36,346 bases of DNA, from positions 1 to 36,346 of IMG/VR virus record IMGVR_UViG_3300044646_001128. One strand, given 5' to 3'. This DNA is from a virus. The notes beneath the pieces were generated by a model. The model was not told the origin of the DNA. It saw only the letters and a list, made by a program, of their open reading frames with translations, and made no database searches. The translations under genes were made by a program, and so were the position numbers. This document shows, piece after piece, positions 11,601-36,346 of the stretch (its first letter is position 1; each line of letters opens with the position of its first letter).

Positions 11601-11711
11601 TTACTTCTTTGCAGCTTTTTTCTTCGCTACTGGCTTCTTTGCAGCCGCCTTCTTAGCGACAGTCTTTTTAGCTGCGACTTTTTTACTTGCTACTTTCTTG
11701 CTCATTTTCAT
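11601..11711 (-). CDS. Histone H1-like Lys/Ala repeat miniprotein
   Basis: A 36-residue protein made almost wholly of Lys, Ala and Val with repeated 'KKxAAKK' units, ending 'KKKAAKK'. This is the composition of bacterial H1-like and AlgP-like C-terminal tails, which bind DNA by charge. AAGGG precedes it, at a distance that favours the internal ATG at 11705 (34 residues). It is the first gene of the leftward operon and thus probably made early. It might compact or shield DNA, or simply be a basic leader peptide. No host histone-like domain precedes the tail. Confidence 0.6.
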   Translation of the reverse strand: MKMSKKVASKKVAAKKTVAKKAAAKKPVAKKKAAKK

Positions 11712-11776
11712 TTCCCTTAAAGGGTGGATAAGCCCACCGGGAGGCCAACCCAAGCCAGCCCCCCGCTAGTCTTTTC

Positions 11777-11795
11777 AATCGCTTAACCAGCGATT
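11777..11795. promoter_or_regulatory. Inverted repeat in the divergent control region
   Basis: AATCGCT and AGCGATT are a perfect 7-bp inverted repeat separated by TAACC. It lies in the 208-bp gap between the leftward operon and the recombinase gene and could be an operator or the foot of a leader hairpin. The rest of the gap is unusually pyrimidine/purine biased, with a short CC-rich stretch at 11746-11765. Confidence 0.4.
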
Positions 11796-11838
11796 TATTT
11801 CTACCCGTACCAAATTTTCTTATTTTGCGTTTTTCCGT

Positions 11839-11868
11839 TTGACATCAACGGGTGATTCGCTCTACAGT
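11839..11868 (+). promoter_or_regulatory. Candidate sigma-70-type promoter for the recombinase operon
   Basis: TTGACA at 11839-11844 is a perfect -35 hexamer, followed after 18 bases by TACAGT at 11863-11868 (four of six matches to TATAAT). The predicted start near 11875 is 45 bases before the recombinase ATG and abuts the palindrome at 11876-11891. Confidence 0.5.
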
Positions 11869-11875
11869 GTGTACA

Positions 11876-11891
11876 GTACTAGAACTAGTAC
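11876..11891. promoter_or_regulatory. Perfect 16-bp palindromic operator or recombinase site
   Basis: GTACTAG and CTAGTAC flank a 2-base AA spacer with no mismatch. It covers the predicted transcription start of the recombinase operon, which is the right place for an autorepressor operator. It could also be a recombinase binding site, since the recombinase gene follows. Confidence 0.55.
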
Positions 11892-11919
11892 GGGATGTAA
11901 ACAAAAAAATGAGCGTGAA

Positions 11920-12891
11920 ATGAAAAAAGTTGTAAAAAAATCATTTAAACTAGCAGTCGACAGGTATATCGAGCAAAGAAGGAAGGTAAGGGACTATTAC
12001 GGAGTGTTAAGGACCTATGCGCGGTACTGCGGTACAAATTGCGAGTATCTCGCACTACAAGAGGCGACCGAAGCGCAAGCCTTGGGATTTAGGGATTATG
12101 TGGTAAGGGAGTATTCAGCCGCTACGGCCAATAAGTACGTTAAAATACTTTCCTGCTTCGGTAGGGTTTTATGGGAAGGGGGATATCTCAATGCCAACCC
12201 TTGGGCGATGGTCCGAGTTCCGAACTCGAAAGGTAAAAGGGTCCGTTGGTACAGAGCGTTAACGATAGAGGAGGTGGGGAAAGTAGCGAGTCAGATAGAA
12301 GCAGGGGAGGGCCTCGAAGATCTTCGAGATGGAATAATCTTCAACCTCCTTTTTGTCCACGCGCTCAGAATTTCCGAAGCCCTCAACGCTCGGGCCGACG
12401 ACTATACGCAGGGGCAGATAACAATCAGGAGTCCAAAAGAGGGGGCGGACTTCGTTTTGACGCTTGACGAGGATACGAACAACAAGATCTCCCGGTTCCT
12501 AAAACTCAGGGGAAGGGAAGGGGGTTTCCTTCTCCCCTCAATTCAGAAAGGTGTTGTAAATGTTACTGTGTCTGTAGACCCAAAGACTATAAACAAGCGT
12601 TTGAAAAACTACGCCCAAAAGGCAGAGATTCCGGCGTTTACGACACACTCAGGACGCACTACAGCCATTACCAAATTACTGGAAGATGGGTATAATATAG
12701 ATCAGGTTCGCACTGTTTCGCGTCACAGTTCTGCATCGATGGTAGAGCGTTATGATAGGCGGCGGCACGAGGCTATTGTAGTTAAATATGAAAAACCTAA
12801 CGTTGAAAGGAGTATGTATGGCAAAAGCAAAGGAAACTCAAAAAAGCTGGCTGGAACCCATAGCCGTGCGATTAGAGCACGATCAGCTTGA
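11920..12891 (+). CDS. Tyrosine recombinase / phage integrase
   Basis: A 323-residue tyrosine recombinase. Residues about 1-100 form the SAM-like core-binding domain. The catalytic set is complete: Arg150 in 'HALRISEAL', Lys173 in 'SPKEG', His243-x-x-Arg246 in 'THSGR', His269 in 'SRHSSA' and the nucleophile Tyr278 in 'VERYDR'. The start at 11920 is preferred because upstream in-frame codons lie within the promoter. The Shine-Dalgarno is weak (GAGCGTGA). A 45-residue basic tail follows the Tyr and overlaps the next gene by 74 bases. Size and order fit a lysogeny integrase or a XerC-like resolvase; the sequence alone does not tell which. Confidence 0.85.
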   Translation: MKKVVKKSFKLAVDRYIEQRRKVRDYYGVLRTYARYCGTNCEYLALQEATEAQALGFRDYVVREYSAATANKYVKILSCFGRVLWEGGYLNANPWAMVRVPNSKGKRVRWYRALTIEEVGKVASQIEAGEGLEDLRDGIIFNLLFVHALRISEALNARADDYTQGQITIRSPKEGADFVLTLDEDTNNKISRFLKLRGREGGFLLPSIQKGVVNVTVSVDPKTINKRLKNYAQKAEIPAFTTHSGRTTAITKLLEDGYNIDQVRTVSRHSSASMVERYDRRRHEAIVVKYEKPNVERSMYGKSKGNSKKLAGTHSRAIRARSA

Positions 12892-13066
12892 GGAAGTCAT
12901 AAAGATAGGCGCGGCTGAAAAGAAGACTAAGAGCGCAATGGGCAAAATGCTTATCGAAATGGGGCTTGAAGTCTACAATCAGAAAGGGAGTTTAGCGCGT
13001 GAGAATGCTTATTTGAGGCGAAAACTCAAGACAATCAAGGACGTTTTAGAGCAGAACGGTATTTAG
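12818..13066 (+). CDS. Ribbon-helix-helix-like small regulator with coiled coil
   Basis: An 82-residue protein. Residues about 13-50 ('IAVRLEHDQLEEVIKIG' then a basic helix) have the beta-strand plus two helices of an Arc/MobC-type ribbon-helix-helix fold. Residues about 55-78 form a short coiled coil. GAAAGGAG precedes the ATG, so 12818 is chosen over an earlier in-frame ATG at 12788. The gene lies inside and beyond the recombinase 3' end. Likely roles are autorepressor of the palindrome-controlled operon, directionality factor for the recombinase, or replication partner. The fold call is by pattern only. Confidence 0.6.
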   Translation: MAKAKETQKSWLEPIAVRLEHDQLEEVIKIGAAEKKTKSAMGKMLIEMGLEVYNQKGSLARENAYLRRKLKTIKDVLEQNGI

Positions 13067-13109
13067 TATTTTGCCTTGGCTAAATTACTAAATATCCGCC
13101 CGGTGGCTT

Positions 13110-13127
13110 CTCTTAGCCCGATAAGAG
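13110..13127. repeat. Short inverted repeat, CTCTTA/TAAGAG
   Basis: CTCTTA and TAAGAG pair perfectly around GCCCGA in the 213-bp gap between the ribbon-helix-helix gene and the replication initiator. It may be an operator or weak hairpin. The rest of the gap is AT-rich, and a second stronger hairpin lies at 13184-13210. Confidence 0.3.
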
Positions 13128-13183
13128 GAGTTATCAAGAGCTACAAAATTTTAGTGATTTAGCGAAGGTGAAATAATAAAAAA

Positions 13184-13210
13184 GGCGCAAGAGGTACGAA
13201 CTCTTGCGCC
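13184..13210 (-). terminator. Strong leftward terminator hairpin
   Basis: GGCGCAAGAG and CTCTTGCGCC are a perfect 10-bp inverted repeat with a 7-base loop. On the minus strand the stem is followed at once by TTTTTT, the pattern of a Rho-independent terminator for leftward transcription. On the plus strand the sequence after the stem is TGGAAATT, which is not a good terminator. No leftward gene is visible immediately upstream of it. Confidence 0.6.
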
Positions 13211-13279
13211 TGGAAATTATTTTGCTCGAAGCGCACGGCAGTTAATGCGTGCGGGTACGACTAATCACTTTAATTACCC

Positions 13280-14470
13280 ATGAGCATTTTATCTGAAAAA
13301 AATTCCGTAGCCAACGACAAAGAGTATAAGTTCACGATCACCATCGGAGAGGCGAGAAGGTTTGGCATGCCAGCTTACGGCATACTGGAGATGATCCTTG
13401 CCAATCGAGCCAAATACTACCCTGTTATATTTCCGAATAGGAGGCAATGGGCCGAGCTGACTGGGATGAGTCGCGTGAGCTTAAGAGTTACCCTTTCGCA
13501 GTTTTTGAAGAAGGGGATTCTATCAATCGTTGAGACCGAAGAAGGCCAAAAAGTATACAAATACAACCGTAATGGTTCATTACAAAACGTTAATGAACCA
13601 TTACAAAACGTTAATGAGCCGCTAATGGTTTGTAATCAGTCATTACAAAACGTTAATGAACCATTACACCAAAGTGTAATGAACCATTACACAAACGTTA
13701 ATGAACCATTACAGTCGCACTATATATCCGAAAAATACTATCAAAGTACTAAAGAATTAAAAGAAGAAGAAGAGGGGCTATCGCCCCAGGTCGGCTTCGC
13801 CTCTTCTTGTGTTTCTGATTTTAGTTCTCCGGTTGTCATTCCTGATGAGATTCAGGAGCTGATTACTAATCCGCCGTTTGTTTCAGTTGTTGCAAAAAAT
13901 GCAACAACTGAGGTTGCCGAAACGGATTTCGGGAACCCTCCACAGACCGTAACAGCCTTCGGAGTCACCTACACAATCAGCAAGCCCGTAAACGCCTCAG
14001 GAAGCACCAACGGCACCACGGGCCATAGTGATACTAGCGTTGGCATGGTGCAGGAGCAGGAAGGGGGCAAAATGGAGGCTACGCAAGGGCGTGAGGTGGC
14101 TATCACAAAGCCAAAGAGCAACAAGCCGAAAAAAGCTAAGAGCTACACTCAGTACGCAGAACAGGATTTCTTTTGGCCTGACCACTGGACGGGGCGAGGA
14201 AGGCAAGCTTTACAAACGTGGGTTGAGTATAAGCGCGACACAGGGAAAGCCGTTCTACTCCAGAGCTATCAACAGCTAATCAAAAACTTCATTGGGGATG
14301 AGCCGGGGTTTGTGCTTGCCGTCGATCACTCAATCGCCAACGCCTACCAAGGACTATTCAAGCCCAACGGCCAACAGCTCAGGGAGGCACAAAAGCAGCA
14401 ACAACAAGCGCAGGTGAACAGCACCGACTGGCACGATCGCTTGGCTGAACTTTTGGCAATGGAGGAATAA
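13280..14470 (+). CDS. Replication initiator, lambda O-like organisation
   Basis: A 396-residue protein. Residues about 15-95 form a winged/helix-turn-helix domain ('RRQWAELTGMSRVSLRVTLSQ'). Residues about 98-152 are a repetitive linker with 'LQNVNEPL' units encoded by DNA iterons. Residues 155-290 are low-complexity. Residues about 295-380 contain 'FFWPDHWTGRGRQALQTWVE' and 'SIANAYQGLF', a C-terminal domain common in phage replication proteins. In lambda O the N-terminal domain binds iterons placed inside the gene, and the C-terminal part contacts the helicase loader; the same arrangement fits here. The next gene is a loader candidate. No primase or ATPase motif is present. Confidence 0.8.
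   Translation: MSILSEKNSVANDKEYKFTITIGEARRFGMPAYGILEMILANRAKYYPVIFPNRRQWAELTGMSRVSLRVTLSQFLKKGILSIVETEEGQKVYKYNRNGSLQNVNEPLQNVNEPLMVCNQSLQNVNEPLHQSVMNHYTNVNEPLQSHYISEKYYQSTKELKEEEEGLSPQVGFASSCVSDFSSPVVIPDEIQELITNPPFVSVVAKNATTEVAETDFGNPPQTVTAFGVTYTISKPVNASGSTNGTTGHSDTSVGMVQEQEGGKMEATQGREVAITKPKSNKPKKAKSYTQYAEQDFFWPDHWTGRGRQALQTWVEYKRDTGKAVLLQSYQQLIKNFIGDEPGFVLAVDHSIANAYQGLFKPNGQQLREAQKQQQQAQVNSTDWHDRLAELLAMEE
13569..13775 (+). other. Candidate replication origin inside the initiator gene
   Basis: Direct repeats beginning CATTACA...GTTAATGA occur at 13578-13598, 13599-13619 (tandem, 21-bp period), 13641-13661, a variant at 13662-13684, and 13685-13706, followed by a half copy at 13707-13713. 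The variant contains a perfect inverted repeat, CATTACAC/GTGTAATG (13662-13681), and GTAATG/CATTAC pairs at 13569-13583. An AT-rich, purine-biased stretch (13720-13775, TATATATCC then A-rich) follows and could be the unwinding element. This is the iteron-plus-AT-rich layout of lambda-type origins. Confidence 0.75.
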
Positions 14471-14473
14471 GAC

Positions 14474-15076
14474 ATGAACAACCAACAAGTTGAATTTCTA
14501 ATCTCCATGCTCCGTGATTGCTTCCCGACTTCTAAAGGCTATGACGGCCCTACGGTAGTTCAGAGTTGGCACACTATGGGCTTGTGCGACCTATCGTTCG
14601 ACAAAGTGCTTTTGGCTGTTCGCAAAGGCATCAAGGAAAACCGATGGGACTATCCGCCGTCAATCAACGACATCCTGAAAGCGTACAACGACGCGTCGCC
14701 AAAAGTCCCAATGGACTATGAGGGGCTGTCGAACGACTCGCAGATCAAGCACGCCATAGACATGCGAGTGAACAAACGGCATCCCGAGGTGGACCCTAAG
14801 AGGCAGTTTCGGGACATCGAAGAGCATCAGGAGGCTTTAGCTATTAACCGACAACAGCGGTTAAAATACCGTAATGAGCTATTCAAGGAGGTGAAACCGG
14901 AAGTTCAACGGCTCCTGAACTCAGGCATGAAAAGCGCGCAGATAGTCAGCCAGGTGTTTGGTGTCGAGTATGTCAAGTCGGATCATCGTAGGCATTTAGG
15001 GCAGGGCACTAATGACGTTGTTGACCTTGCAAAATCCATTGCTAAAGCACTACCGGGGGTGGGAAATGGAAGTTAA
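14474..15076 (+). CDS. Helicase-loader candidate, G39P-like
   Basis: A 200-residue protein with no ATPase motif, so it is not a DnaC-type AAA+ loader. Residues 5-70, including 'LRDCFPTSKGYDGPTVVQSW' and 'RWDYPPSINDILKAYND', have the helical pattern of the SPP1 G39P loader/inhibitor N-domain. That family carries the replicative helicase to the origin-bound initiator. The remaining sequence is charged and helical with a basic C-terminus. It follows the initiator gene by three bases with AGGAGGAATAAGAC before its ATG, matching the O-P arrangement. The family assignment is by pattern and would need a profile search. Confidence 0.6.
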   Translation: MNNQQVEFLISMLRDCFPTSKGYDGPTVVQSWHTMGLCDLSFDKVLLAVRKGIKENRWDYPPSINDILKAYNDASPKVPMDYEGLSNDSQIKHAIDMRVNKRHPEVDPKRQFRDIEEHQEALAINRQQRLKYRNELFKEVKPEVQRLLNSGMKSAQIVSQVFGVEYVKSDHRRHLGQGTNDVVDLAKSIAKALPGVGNGS

Positions 15077-15338: not shown

Positions 15339-16502
15339 ATGTACGAACATCACGAAATAGCAAACATATTCCCTCTATTCGCAAACAGCGAACTAGAGGC
15401 ACTAACGCAGGACATAAAGAACCACGGGCTACGGGAAGCCATATGGCTTTACGAGGGGAAAATACTTGATGGGAGGAACAGATACCTTGCCTGTGGGTTA
15501 GCAGGGGTTATGCCTTCGTTTAGGCAGTATGAAGGCACTGACCCCGTGGGGTTCGTGGTGTCGCTGAACTTACACCGACGGCATTTGAACGAAAGCCAAA
15601 GGGGTATGGTTACGGCGAATATCGCGAGACTAAGCAAAGGCGGAGACAGCGGGGTAGTTAAAAGCAATGCGCAAATTTGCGCATTGAACATCCCTACGCA
15701 GACCGAAGCGGCCCAAATGCTTAACGTCAGCCGGCGCACCGTCCAGCATGCCAGGGCAGTCCAGGACGAAGGAGCACCGGAGCTAATCGAACAGGTAGTT
15801 CGCGGCAACGTCGCAGTCTCTACCGCTTCCGAAGTAGCGACCCTACCAAAAGAAGAACAAGCGGAGATCGTAGCCAAAGGAGAGAAGGCGATACTAGAAG
15901 CAGCTAAGAAGATACGGGCGGAGAAATTAGAGACTAGAAGGGTTGAGAAGATCGAGCGCATAGCAGAGATAAGCAGCCGGAGCAGGGATCTGAATATAGC
16001 TCAAAGGTTCCCTATCGTTTATGTTGATCCTCCGTGGCGCTACGAGGGGAATATCTGCGACGAGACCAGAGACCTTGATAACCACTACCCCACCATGACC
16101 GACGACGAACTAAGGAATCTCCCAGTTGCCAATATTGCGACCGACGACGCTATGCTATTCATTTGGTCGACCAATTCGCACCTACCCTTAGCTATAGAAC
16201 TAATCAAACACTGGGGGTTTGAGTACAAGAATAACTTTGCTTGGGTGAAGGACAAAGTAGGGCTAGGTGTCTACAACCGGGGTCAGCACGAACTCCTATT
16301 GGTAGCTCGAAAGGGCGGGATCCCAGTTCCCCCGCCACAAGGGCGGACCCCTTCCGTTGTACAAGCAGCAAGGTTAGAACATTCCGAAAAGCCAACCGAG
16401 TTCTATGAACTCATAGAGCGGGCCTATCCAGAGCTTCCCAAGATAGAACTATTCGCACGCAAAGACAGGACCGGCTGGGCAAGTTGGGGGAATGAAGTAT
16501 GA
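15339..16502 (+). CDS. ParB-like domain fused to MT-A70 adenine methyltransferase
   Basis: A 387-residue protein in two parts. Residues about 1-105 are a ParB/Srx-like domain with 'GKILDGRNRY' (40-49). Residues about 118-140 form a helix-turn-helix ('TQTEAAQMLNVSRRTVQ'). Residues about 225-385 are an MT-A70 methyltransferase with the catalytic 'DPPW' at 230-233. MT-A70 enzymes transfer methyl from S-adenosylmethionine to adenine N6. No cognate restriction gene is nearby, so it is an orphan enzyme that could protect phage DNA or mark replication status. The GGAG site lies before the ATG. Fusions of this type are known in phage genomes. Confidence 0.88.
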   Translation: MYEHHEIANIFPLFANSELEALTQDIKNHGLREAIWLYEGKILDGRNRYLACGLAGVMPSFRQYEGTDPVGFVVSLNLHRRHLNESQRGMVTANIARLSKGGDSGVVKSNAQICALNIPTQTEAAQMLNVSRRTVQHARAVQDEGAPELIEQVVRGNVAVSTASEVATLPKEEQAEIVAKGEKAILEAAKKIRAEKLETRRVEKIERIAEISSRSRDLNIAQRFPIVYVDPPWRYEGNICDETRDLDNHYPTMTDDELRNLPVANIATDDAMLFIWSTNSHLPLAIELIKHWGFEYKNNFAWVKDKVGLGVYNRGQHELLLVARKGGIPVPPPQGRTPSVVQAARLEHSEKPTEFYELIERAYPELPKIELFARKDRTGWASWGNEV

Positions 16503-34444: not shown

Positions 34445-36346
34445 TGGGATTAACTCCTGAAGAACAAGCCAGAATGGAGCAATTACAGGCTGAAATAAGC
34501 CAGTTCGAGGCTCCTACTCCAACAATCGCGCCATCAACAGAGGGGCGCACATGGAACCGCTACGCCGACAACCTTGCACAACAGGCAATAGGCGGGCTCA
34601 CGCTCGGATATGACGATGAAATATTCGGCGGAATTGCTGGACTTGCTAATTACGTGACTGGTAAGGGCGCTACGGGCGAACAGATGCTCGACAAGTACCG
34701 CGCAGAAGATAAGGCGTTTCAGCAATCAGACCCAGCGGCGGCCATTCTTGCAGGCATTGGCGGCTCTATGATGATGCCAGGCGGAAGCGTCTTAGGCTTA
34801 GCCACAAAGGCAACGATGGGCGTCAATGCGGCCAAGGCGCTAAACTCTGGGATAGTCGGGCGGGTAGCTCAGGCAGTAACAGACGGAGCTATTGCAGGAA
34901 GCGGAGAAGCTGAAGGCGACTTTGCCAAGAGAATGATCGGCGGTCTCGCATCGGGGGCAATCTCAGGCGGTATTGGTGGCGGTGCTTCAGCAATCACTTC
35001 AGGCGGCGGAGCATTATACAACAAGGTGGGCCAGGCTCTAGGAGATGGCGCGTTTGACCCAACTATTCGCAAGATCGGCGACACTCTCGGCCTTGACGCC
35101 GTGACAGCTCCAATACTAAAGGAAGCGCAAGACAGAATAAACCTTGCAGCACAATACAACATACCGCTGAACGTTCTGGATTCAGTGACCGTTCCCGTAA
35201 CATCAGGCGGCGATACAGCCAAGAGCAGCCTATACAACCTTGCCAAGCAAGTAGCACAGACCCTCGACGGCGGGATCATGGAATCTCAAGTTGCATTGAA
35301 ACAACGGGGAGAGAACCGATTCGATCGCATCAACAGCATTCTGGACCAAATAGCACCAGGTAAGGGTGTTCGTGCAGCATCAGAAGACTTTTCAAGCATG
35401 GCAGAAGATGCGGTAAAAACAGCTCGTAAAAGCCTTGCACAAGAAGAAGGGCAGCTATTTAGGGACATGAAAGAGCAGTTCCCGAAAATAGGGGCCGAAA
35501 GGGCGAACAAGCTACTTGAAATCGAGACGCCGGACGGTATCGCCCCTGTGAAATCTCTACTTGATAGCGCCTACAAGACACACAAAATCGTGGCTATGGA
35601 GCAAGGCGCTCCGGCTATGTCAAAGGCTGATTTCGAGCGGTCAACAGAGGGATGGTTGAGCGTTAGAAAGGAAGTGAGCGACAGGCTAGAAGGCTTAAAG
35701 CAGAGCAATGACAGCTCTAAATACTCCGAAATGCGGCCCGTTGCCTCCCTGTTAAAAGTAATCGACAGTGAGATTAACGCAGCAACCGAAGGCGGGCTAA
35801 AAAAGGCAAACAAAGCATACGCCGACAGATACGCAGCCGAACCCGAAGTTCTTGACATCGGCGGAATAATCCAACGGATAGCTAAAGATAGGTCTTTAGG
35901 CGCTAGCCCTATCGCAAGGATCAAAGAGGTATACGGCGCTACTGCTATTGATTCAGCGGATATAGAGGCGGTATCAAGGTACTTACCCGATGATGCTAAT
36001 CGGCTGGGGTTAAGAGCGGGTCTCGGAGTCTCCTATAATGACAAGGGCGATAATCCAGCACGGGCGCTACTTAAGAGCGACAGAATAAAAAATCAAATGC
36101 AACGGATACTACCCGAACAGGAGGTGGCCCAGATTCGCCAGCTGCTAAACTTTGAGAACGCTATAAACACCAACACCCAAGGCCTAACACAAGGCAGCCC
36201 GACAAACTCAAATCAGTACTCGACGATAAAGGAAGTCCTGAAAAAAGTTCCTGGTGTTAGTCTTCTTAGTCGGTTGGCGGATGATATGCAGTCTCGAAAA
36301 ACGACAGACGAATACTCTAAGTTGGCAAACGCAATGTTTAGAACTG
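34444..36346 (+). CDS. Ejection/virion protein, split by the window edge
   Basis: An open reading frame that runs to the window end and continues at position 1, ending at 184. The joined protein has 684 residues. Residues about 100-180 are Gly/Ala-rich with hydrophobic patches ('ILAGIGGSMMMPGGSVLG', 'GGLASGAISGGIGGG') and might insert in membranes. Residues about 220-430 are helical and charged. The C-terminus contains 'LLNFENAINTNTQGLTQGSP', a sequence style I associate with DNA ejection (pilot) proteins of podoviruses. Such proteins leave the virion with the DNA and form a channel across the host envelope. The split arises from where the circular sequence was opened. Confidence 0.75.
   Translation, partial: MGLTPEEQARMEQLQAEISQFEAPTPTIAPSTEGRTWNRYADNLAQQAIGGLTLGYDDEIFGGIAGLANYVTGKGATGEQMLDKYRAEDKAFQQSDPAAAILAGIGGSMMMPGGSVLGLATKATMGVNAAKALNSGIVGRVAQAVTDGAIAGSGEAEGDFAKRMIGGLASGAISGGIGGGASAITSGGGALYNKVGQALGDGAFDPTIRKIGDTLGLDAVTAPILKEAQDRINLAAQYNIPLNVLDSVTVPVTSGGDTAKSSLYNLAKQVAQTLDGGIMESQVALKQRGENRFDRINSILDQIAPGKGVRAASEDFSSMAEDAVKTARKSLAQEEGQLFRDMKEQFPKIGAERANKLLEIETPDGIAPVKSLLDSAYKTHKIVAMEQGAPAMSKADFERSTEGWLSVRKEVSDRLEGLKQSNDSSKYSEMRPVASLLKVIDSEINAATEGGLKKANKAYADRYAAEPEVLDIGGIIQRIAKDRSLGASPIARIKEVYGATAIDSADIEAVSRYLPDDANRLGLRAGLGVSYNDKGDNPARALLKSDRIKNQMQRILPEQEVAQIRQLLNFENAINTNTQGLTQGSPTNSNQYSTIKEVLKKVPGVSLLSRLADDMQSRKTTDEYSKLANAMFRT
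36315..36346. repeat. 32-bp terminal direct repeat showing circular contig
   Basis: These bases equal positions 1-32 exactly, and the reading frame crossing the join is uninterrupted. The most likely cause is the assembly overlap of a circular or circularly permuted genome, rather than a biological terminal repeat, since it falls inside a gene at an arbitrary place. Confidence 0.9.

Follow-up and report, generated by a model that had tools for sequence, protein, structure and literature searches.

The stretch of DNA analysed here (the window) is a viral record of 36,346 nucleotides, which probably represents a complete circular genome, because its ends (1–32 and 36315–36346) form an exact 32-bp direct terminal repeat. 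The rightward early promoter has TTGACA (11839–11844, + strand) as its −35 element, for which the best predicted −10 is TACAGT (11863–11868, + strand) at a spacer of 18; together they score 10 of 12 matches. With this −10 as the best one, transcription would be predicted to start near 11875. Upstream lies a conserved intergenic region (11709–11838), which separates the rightward promoter from a divergent leftward Lys-rich gene. The leftward genes are, in order, the one for this 34-residue Lys-rich peptide, small ORFs, and then Gam-like and RecT-like genes.

Downstream of the promoter, a Xer-like tyrosine recombinase of 323 aa is encoded at 11920–12891 (+ strand). Its start is most likely the ATG at 11920, the TTG at 11839 being only the ORF caller's mechanical choice. 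XerA/XerC/XerD-type models match the protein, and the named proteins nearest to it, at 27–30% identity, are on plasmids; peptide-pattern searches of viral and genome contigs revealed no relatives. No clear Shine-Dalgarno sequence was seen for the gene, and a four-codon ORF (ATG AGC GTG AAA TGA, 11909–11923) has a stop that overlaps the likely start ATG 11920; translational coupling of this ORF with the recombinase may be possible for these two reasons. The end of the recombinase ORF is overlapped by the gene for an 82-aa putative ribbon-helix-helix (RHH) protein (12818–13066, + strand), which has the Shine-Dalgarno sequence AGGAG and is the proposed autorepressor. A replication initiator of the lambda O type (13280–14470, + strand) is the next gene of the rightward early region, and a helicase-loader (P-like) gene follows farther on.

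A palindrome at the predicted transcription start

A perfect palindrome of 16 bp, GTACTAG-AA-CTAGTAC, is located at 11876–11891 (GTACTAGAACTAGTAC) and is proposed here as an operator. Its dyad centre lies 39.5 bp past TTGACA, and its GTAC cores, at 11876 and 11888, are 12 bp apart. The initial annotation had described an exact palindrome behind a perfect TTGACA, at the predicted start, and both sequences are present as described. The sole match to GTACTAGNNCTAGTAC in the window is the palindrome itself, even when three mismatches are allowed. Each strand of the 36,346-base record has a single copy of the heptamer CTAGTAC, both copies belonging to this dyad, and no other inverted CTAGTAC pair with fewer than three mismatches and a spacer of 0–4 was found in the window.

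The symmetry by itself is hardly more than chance would give, because the 13 perfect inverted repeats of the window (arms ≥7, spacers ≤4) are about as many as 30 resamples gave (9.8, sd 2.6). The chance of such a repeat is 0.014 in the 75-bp segment after TTGACA and 0.07 in the 211-bp intergenic region. It is through its position and its conservation that the palindrome is notable. A scan of viral contigs detected the exact palindrome in at least 119 loci (at least 120 sites), many of the contigs being unrelated. Among the 120 sites listed, 90 lie inside long stop-free frames (≥150 codons) and only 3 are within 60 bp of an exact TTGACA, and the idea of a widespread promoter motif was rejected on these counts. 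Elsewhere in the window, a rarer and longer perfect palindrome of 22 bp (CAATGCGCAAATTTGCGCATTG) is located at 15665–15686 within a ParB-like/MT-A70 ORF.

Conservation of the site in a relative

Portal searches yielded five loci, including L124, from a record of 35,179 bp (hereafter G001), and L125, from a second record (hereafter G002). The window and G001 have the early region in common; G002, with a portal 72% identical, differs in this region and gave no RHH match. The evidence on conservation thus comes from a single informative relative, G001. The DNA of 11700–14500 had no match in phages, and alignments of the adjacent conserved gene, the RecT-like gene, and the helicase-loader gene each retrieved only G001 from viral contigs; the RecT-like alignment found nothing in genome contigs. 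A search of viral contigs with the conserved hairpin retrieved G001 and one further locus (L135), which is an unrelated chance match inside another phage.

The segment 11709–11844 is 79.6% identical in G001, with gaps. The sequence TTTTTCCGTTTGACA is identical in both genomes, as are TTGACA and the nine bases preceding it, while the −10 TACAGT is not kept, G001 having its own TATTGT at a spacer of 17. The RHH-like gene lies directly behind TTGACA in G001 and is the first gene after the recombinase in the window. No recombinase of PF00589 or PF00239 was found in G001 or G002, and one hidden in the gap of the G001 contig is unlikely, because the contig ends fall inside the O-like gene. The promoter had initially been labelled as that of the recombinase. 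This label is not supported, since G001 keeps the promoter region and the RHH gene in the absence of a recombinase, which assigns the promoter to the RHH/early operon. The site is likewise independent of the recombinase, and judging from the gene order of the two genomes, the palindrome would go with the early/RHH operon, the recombinase not being the reason for it. The lack of any recombinase in G001 also implies that the putative switch does not depend on integration.

In an ungapped reading of the two sequences from TTGACA, the bases as far as 11883 agree at only 4 of 39 positions. The following segment (11884–11909, + strand), which includes the right arm of the palindrome, is conserved and lies equally far from TTGACA in G001, with 20 of 26 bases identical (ACTAGTACG in the window and ACTATTACG in G001). 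The best in-register stretch of 22 bases has 17 matches, a value equalled by a fraction of 5e-5 of 20,000 shuffles of the G001 segment and exceeded by none; out of register (shifts −12 to 12), no stretch had more than 15 matches (shift 9), the next value being 14 (shift 4). The conserved position of the site relative to the promoter is thereby established.

The G001 segment carries an imperfect dyad, GTAACAG-ATTA-CTATTAC, with arms complementary at 6 of 7 positions, a spacer of 4 bp as against 2 bp in the window, and a centre 38.5 bp past TTGACA. The chance of such a left partner at a spacer of 0–6 in G001 is 0.025, a value that applies to a dyad recognised after the fact and in one relative. 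The pair C11879–G11888 of the window is A–T in G001. This change affects both sides of the dyad, as expected if the site is recognised with two-fold symmetry; in G001, one other pair has lost its complementarity. The initial annotation had named the palindrome's absence in close relatives with the same gene order as a refutation of its proposal. In the comparison, which covers G001 only, the perfect palindrome is absent, but the right arm is in place within an imperfect dyad with a two-sided change.

A candidate autorepressor operator and its alternatives

The ortholog of the 82-residue protein in G001 has 75 residues (locus L131, 16983–17210) and is 37–41% identical to it. Both orthologs independently match PHROG 3431, "Arc-like repressor" (E 3e-4 and 2e-4). 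In Pfam, the G001 ortholog matches RHH_5 (E 0.0014) and the window protein matches TraM (E 0.059), both under the cut-off. The AlphaFold models are poor (pLDDT 57 and 60) and contain helices only, the expected strand being missing. A PDB sequence search with the RHH-like protein gave nothing significant, the best hit (E 0.42) not being an RHH protein, and hhalign against an Arc/Mnt profile gave a probability of 0.2 with higher values for shuffled controls, in a comparison where two-sequence profiles have little power. The assignment of the 82-residue protein to the RHH family is weak, and the protein is referred to as putative throughout. No relatives of it were found in viral contigs, phages, or plasmids, and none of the G001 protein in phages. 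The RHH gene is 49.8% identical between the window and G001 at the DNA level, with gaps, and 37% at the protein level, while most neighbouring genes share 67–85% protein identity. The divergence of the gene, far beyond that of its neighbours (49.8% against 77–80% of DNA) and of the intergenic region (79.6%), fits a repressor–operator pair that is changing specificity.

It is proposed, with a probability of about 0.6, that the palindrome serves as the operator of the rightward early promoter, bound by an RHH autorepressor that is encoded on the same transcript and occupies the position of Cro. The dyad at 11876–11891 lies at the predicted start and its position is kept in G001, which places it for promoter occlusion by a bound protein. 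The 82-residue RHH-like protein would bind the palindrome as paired dimers, one per half, with CTA[GT]TAC as the proposed half-site, and would cover the transcription start and block RNA polymerase. Expression of the operon might then come as a burst after infection followed by damping, and the recombinase, which lies between the promoter and the repressor gene, would be under the same feedback in this phage. An operator at the start and an RHH-like candidate autorepressor within the operon had already been suggested from the sequence, and this suggestion gains support from the promoter, the conservation in G001, and the matches to PHROG 3431. We infer the RHH identity, the binding at the palindrome, and the repression by the 82-residue protein from these features.

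Another protein might bind the same operator, such as the recombinase, a repressor of the host, or a phage protein that went unrecognised. The weak RHH assignment leaves room for such a binder, as do the many small early proteins that have no family match. However, the recombinase is missing from G001 although the right arm persists, no HTH repressor was recognised, and the RHH-like gene comes first behind the promoter of G001 and next after the recombinase in the window, all of which makes a different binder unlikely. It is also conceivable that the perfect symmetry arose by chance on a conserved transcribed element that has no two-fold symmetric function. This would agree with the near-chance frequency of inverted repeats in the window, with the conservation of the right arm and the bases downstream of it while the left arm is not in register, and with the prevalence of long stop-free frames around the listed viral copies, which argues against a general promoter motif. 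Such a coincidence is nonetheless distinctly improbable, considering the low probability of a perfect repeat in the 75 bp behind TTGACA and the independent near-dyad of G001 with its two-sided change.

The XerA/XerC/XerD-type matches and the plasmid location of its closest named relatives would be compatible with a dif- or res-like site at which the adjacent Xer-like recombinase acts, and recombinase sites commonly adjoin their own gene. The 2-bp spacer of the palindrome, or its nearly symmetric 6-bp core AGAACT, is unlike a directional crossover region, and the palindrome overlaps the promoter start. Moreover, the promoter, the in-register right arm, and a dyad are all present in G001, where no PF00589 or PF00239 recombinase was found; a recombinase-specific site or promoter was rejected as the first choice for this reason, and a recombination site is very unlikely. 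An RNA hairpin at the 5' end of the transcript, with a 6-bp stem and a 4-base loop (−5.4 kcal/mol), that shields the transcript or adjusts how the recombinase is translated is hardly credible and was rejected, as the segment folds no better than shuffles (z-score −0.62; 47 of 200 fold equally well), its G001 counterpart lacks the hairpin (z +1.05), and there is no Rfam match.

An operator bound by the RHH-like protein thus remains the preferred reading, and the concept is close to P22 Mnt/Arc and SSV1 F55, RHH autorepressors at early promoters being already known in P22 and archaeal viruses. The Pant promoter of P22 immI resembles the window in having a TTGACA early-operon promoter, a small RHH repressor (putative in the window), and a perfect palindromic operator; on the annotated P22 record, the centre of the Mnt operator lies 38.0 bp past TTGACA, compared with 39.5 bp in the window. 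However, P22 has two RHH proteins, Arc and the divergently encoded Mnt, whereas the window has one putative RHH protein, downstream of the promoter. In contrast to immI, no antirepressor was seen in the window and replication genes come after the operon, and the similarity of the window protein to Arc and Mnt is not significant. P22 also has a separate immC with the C2 repressor. In lambda, the gene order is pR-cro-O-P. As in the Cro/pR arrangement of lambdoid phages, the putative regulator of the window comes first in a rightward early operon that continues with O-like and P-like replication genes, and a divergent operon of recombination genes (Gam-like, RecT-like), read leftward, is shared as well. 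The job proposed for the window protein is that of Cro, Arc, or Mnt, performed with the RHH fold. Unlike in the lambdoid Cro/pR region, an RHH-like protein would replace the HTH protein, and no CI or second operator region was recognised.

The initial annotation had stated that a CI-like repressor is not recognised, and the searches agree: no CI-like family was detected among 38 window proteins compared with PHROGs and 28 compared with Pfam, and HTH_3 had no match above the cut-off in the six frames of the window. The role in lysis–lysogeny suggested for the palindrome is possible, and a repressor at this position would be expected to be closer to Cro or Mnt in its action than to CI. Copy control, suggested at the same time, found no support. 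In a wider scenario, which is unlikely, a complete temperate phage would control its early operon solely through a rapidly diverging RHH repressor and the operator it binds. Close relatives would then differ in immunity type, and the recombinase gene, by lying between promoter and repressor, would couple integration or dimer resolution to this feedback loop.

A literature search turned up archaeal viral RHH regulators and RHH autoregulation in toxin–antitoxin systems. The SSV1 regulator F55 is described as an RHH protein that acts at early promoters, through sites overlapping the transcription starts, and that shuts down its own gene and sustains lysogeny with no CI protein involved (PMC5569661). 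As described there, F55 uses tandem ATAGATAG repeats at several archaeal promoters, whereas a single inverted dyad was found in the window, at a bacterial-type promoter. RelB, an RHH autoregulator, is described as binding in dimers to paired palindromic relO subsites with 12-bp half-sites on one face of the DNA (PMC2812701), and the GTAC cores of the window show the same 12-bp interval. RelB is, however, described as tolerating no added spacing between half-sites (PMC2812701), whereas the spacer is 2 bp in the window and 4 bp in G001, which counts against the preferred reading. RelB is moreover an antitoxin with RelE as co-repressor, and no toxin gene was recognised beside the window gene.

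Compared with these systems, the recombinase between promoter and repressor, seen in one of the two relatives, is a variation in arrangement. If the preferred reading is right, it would provide a testable early regulator for a group of phages in which no CI repressor can be recognised. The window and G001 would also constitute a ready-made operator specificity pair, with one symmetric base-pair change, different spacers, and proteins that are 37% identical.

Other elements of the early region

On the leftward side, the 34-residue peptide (11601–11705, minus strand) is Lys-/Ala-rich and histone-H1-like, and its counterpart in G001 has 29 residues. The leader of the leftward transcript (11705–11800, minus strand) is folded much more stably than shuffled sequences (z −3.93; 0 of 200) and is largely kept in G001; it has no Rfam match. 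On the rightward side, a hairpin with an 11-bp stem separates the RHH and O-like genes (13183–13211) and was called terminator-like on the minus strand; by eye, a hairpin is also present after the RHH gene of G001 (locus L131, from ~17217). In or near the O-like gene, 13569–13692 and 13883–13911 contain repeats as well as long inverted repeats with arms of 8, 12, and 14, which probably represent the replication origin. The corresponding gene of G001 carries repeats that differ from those of the window.
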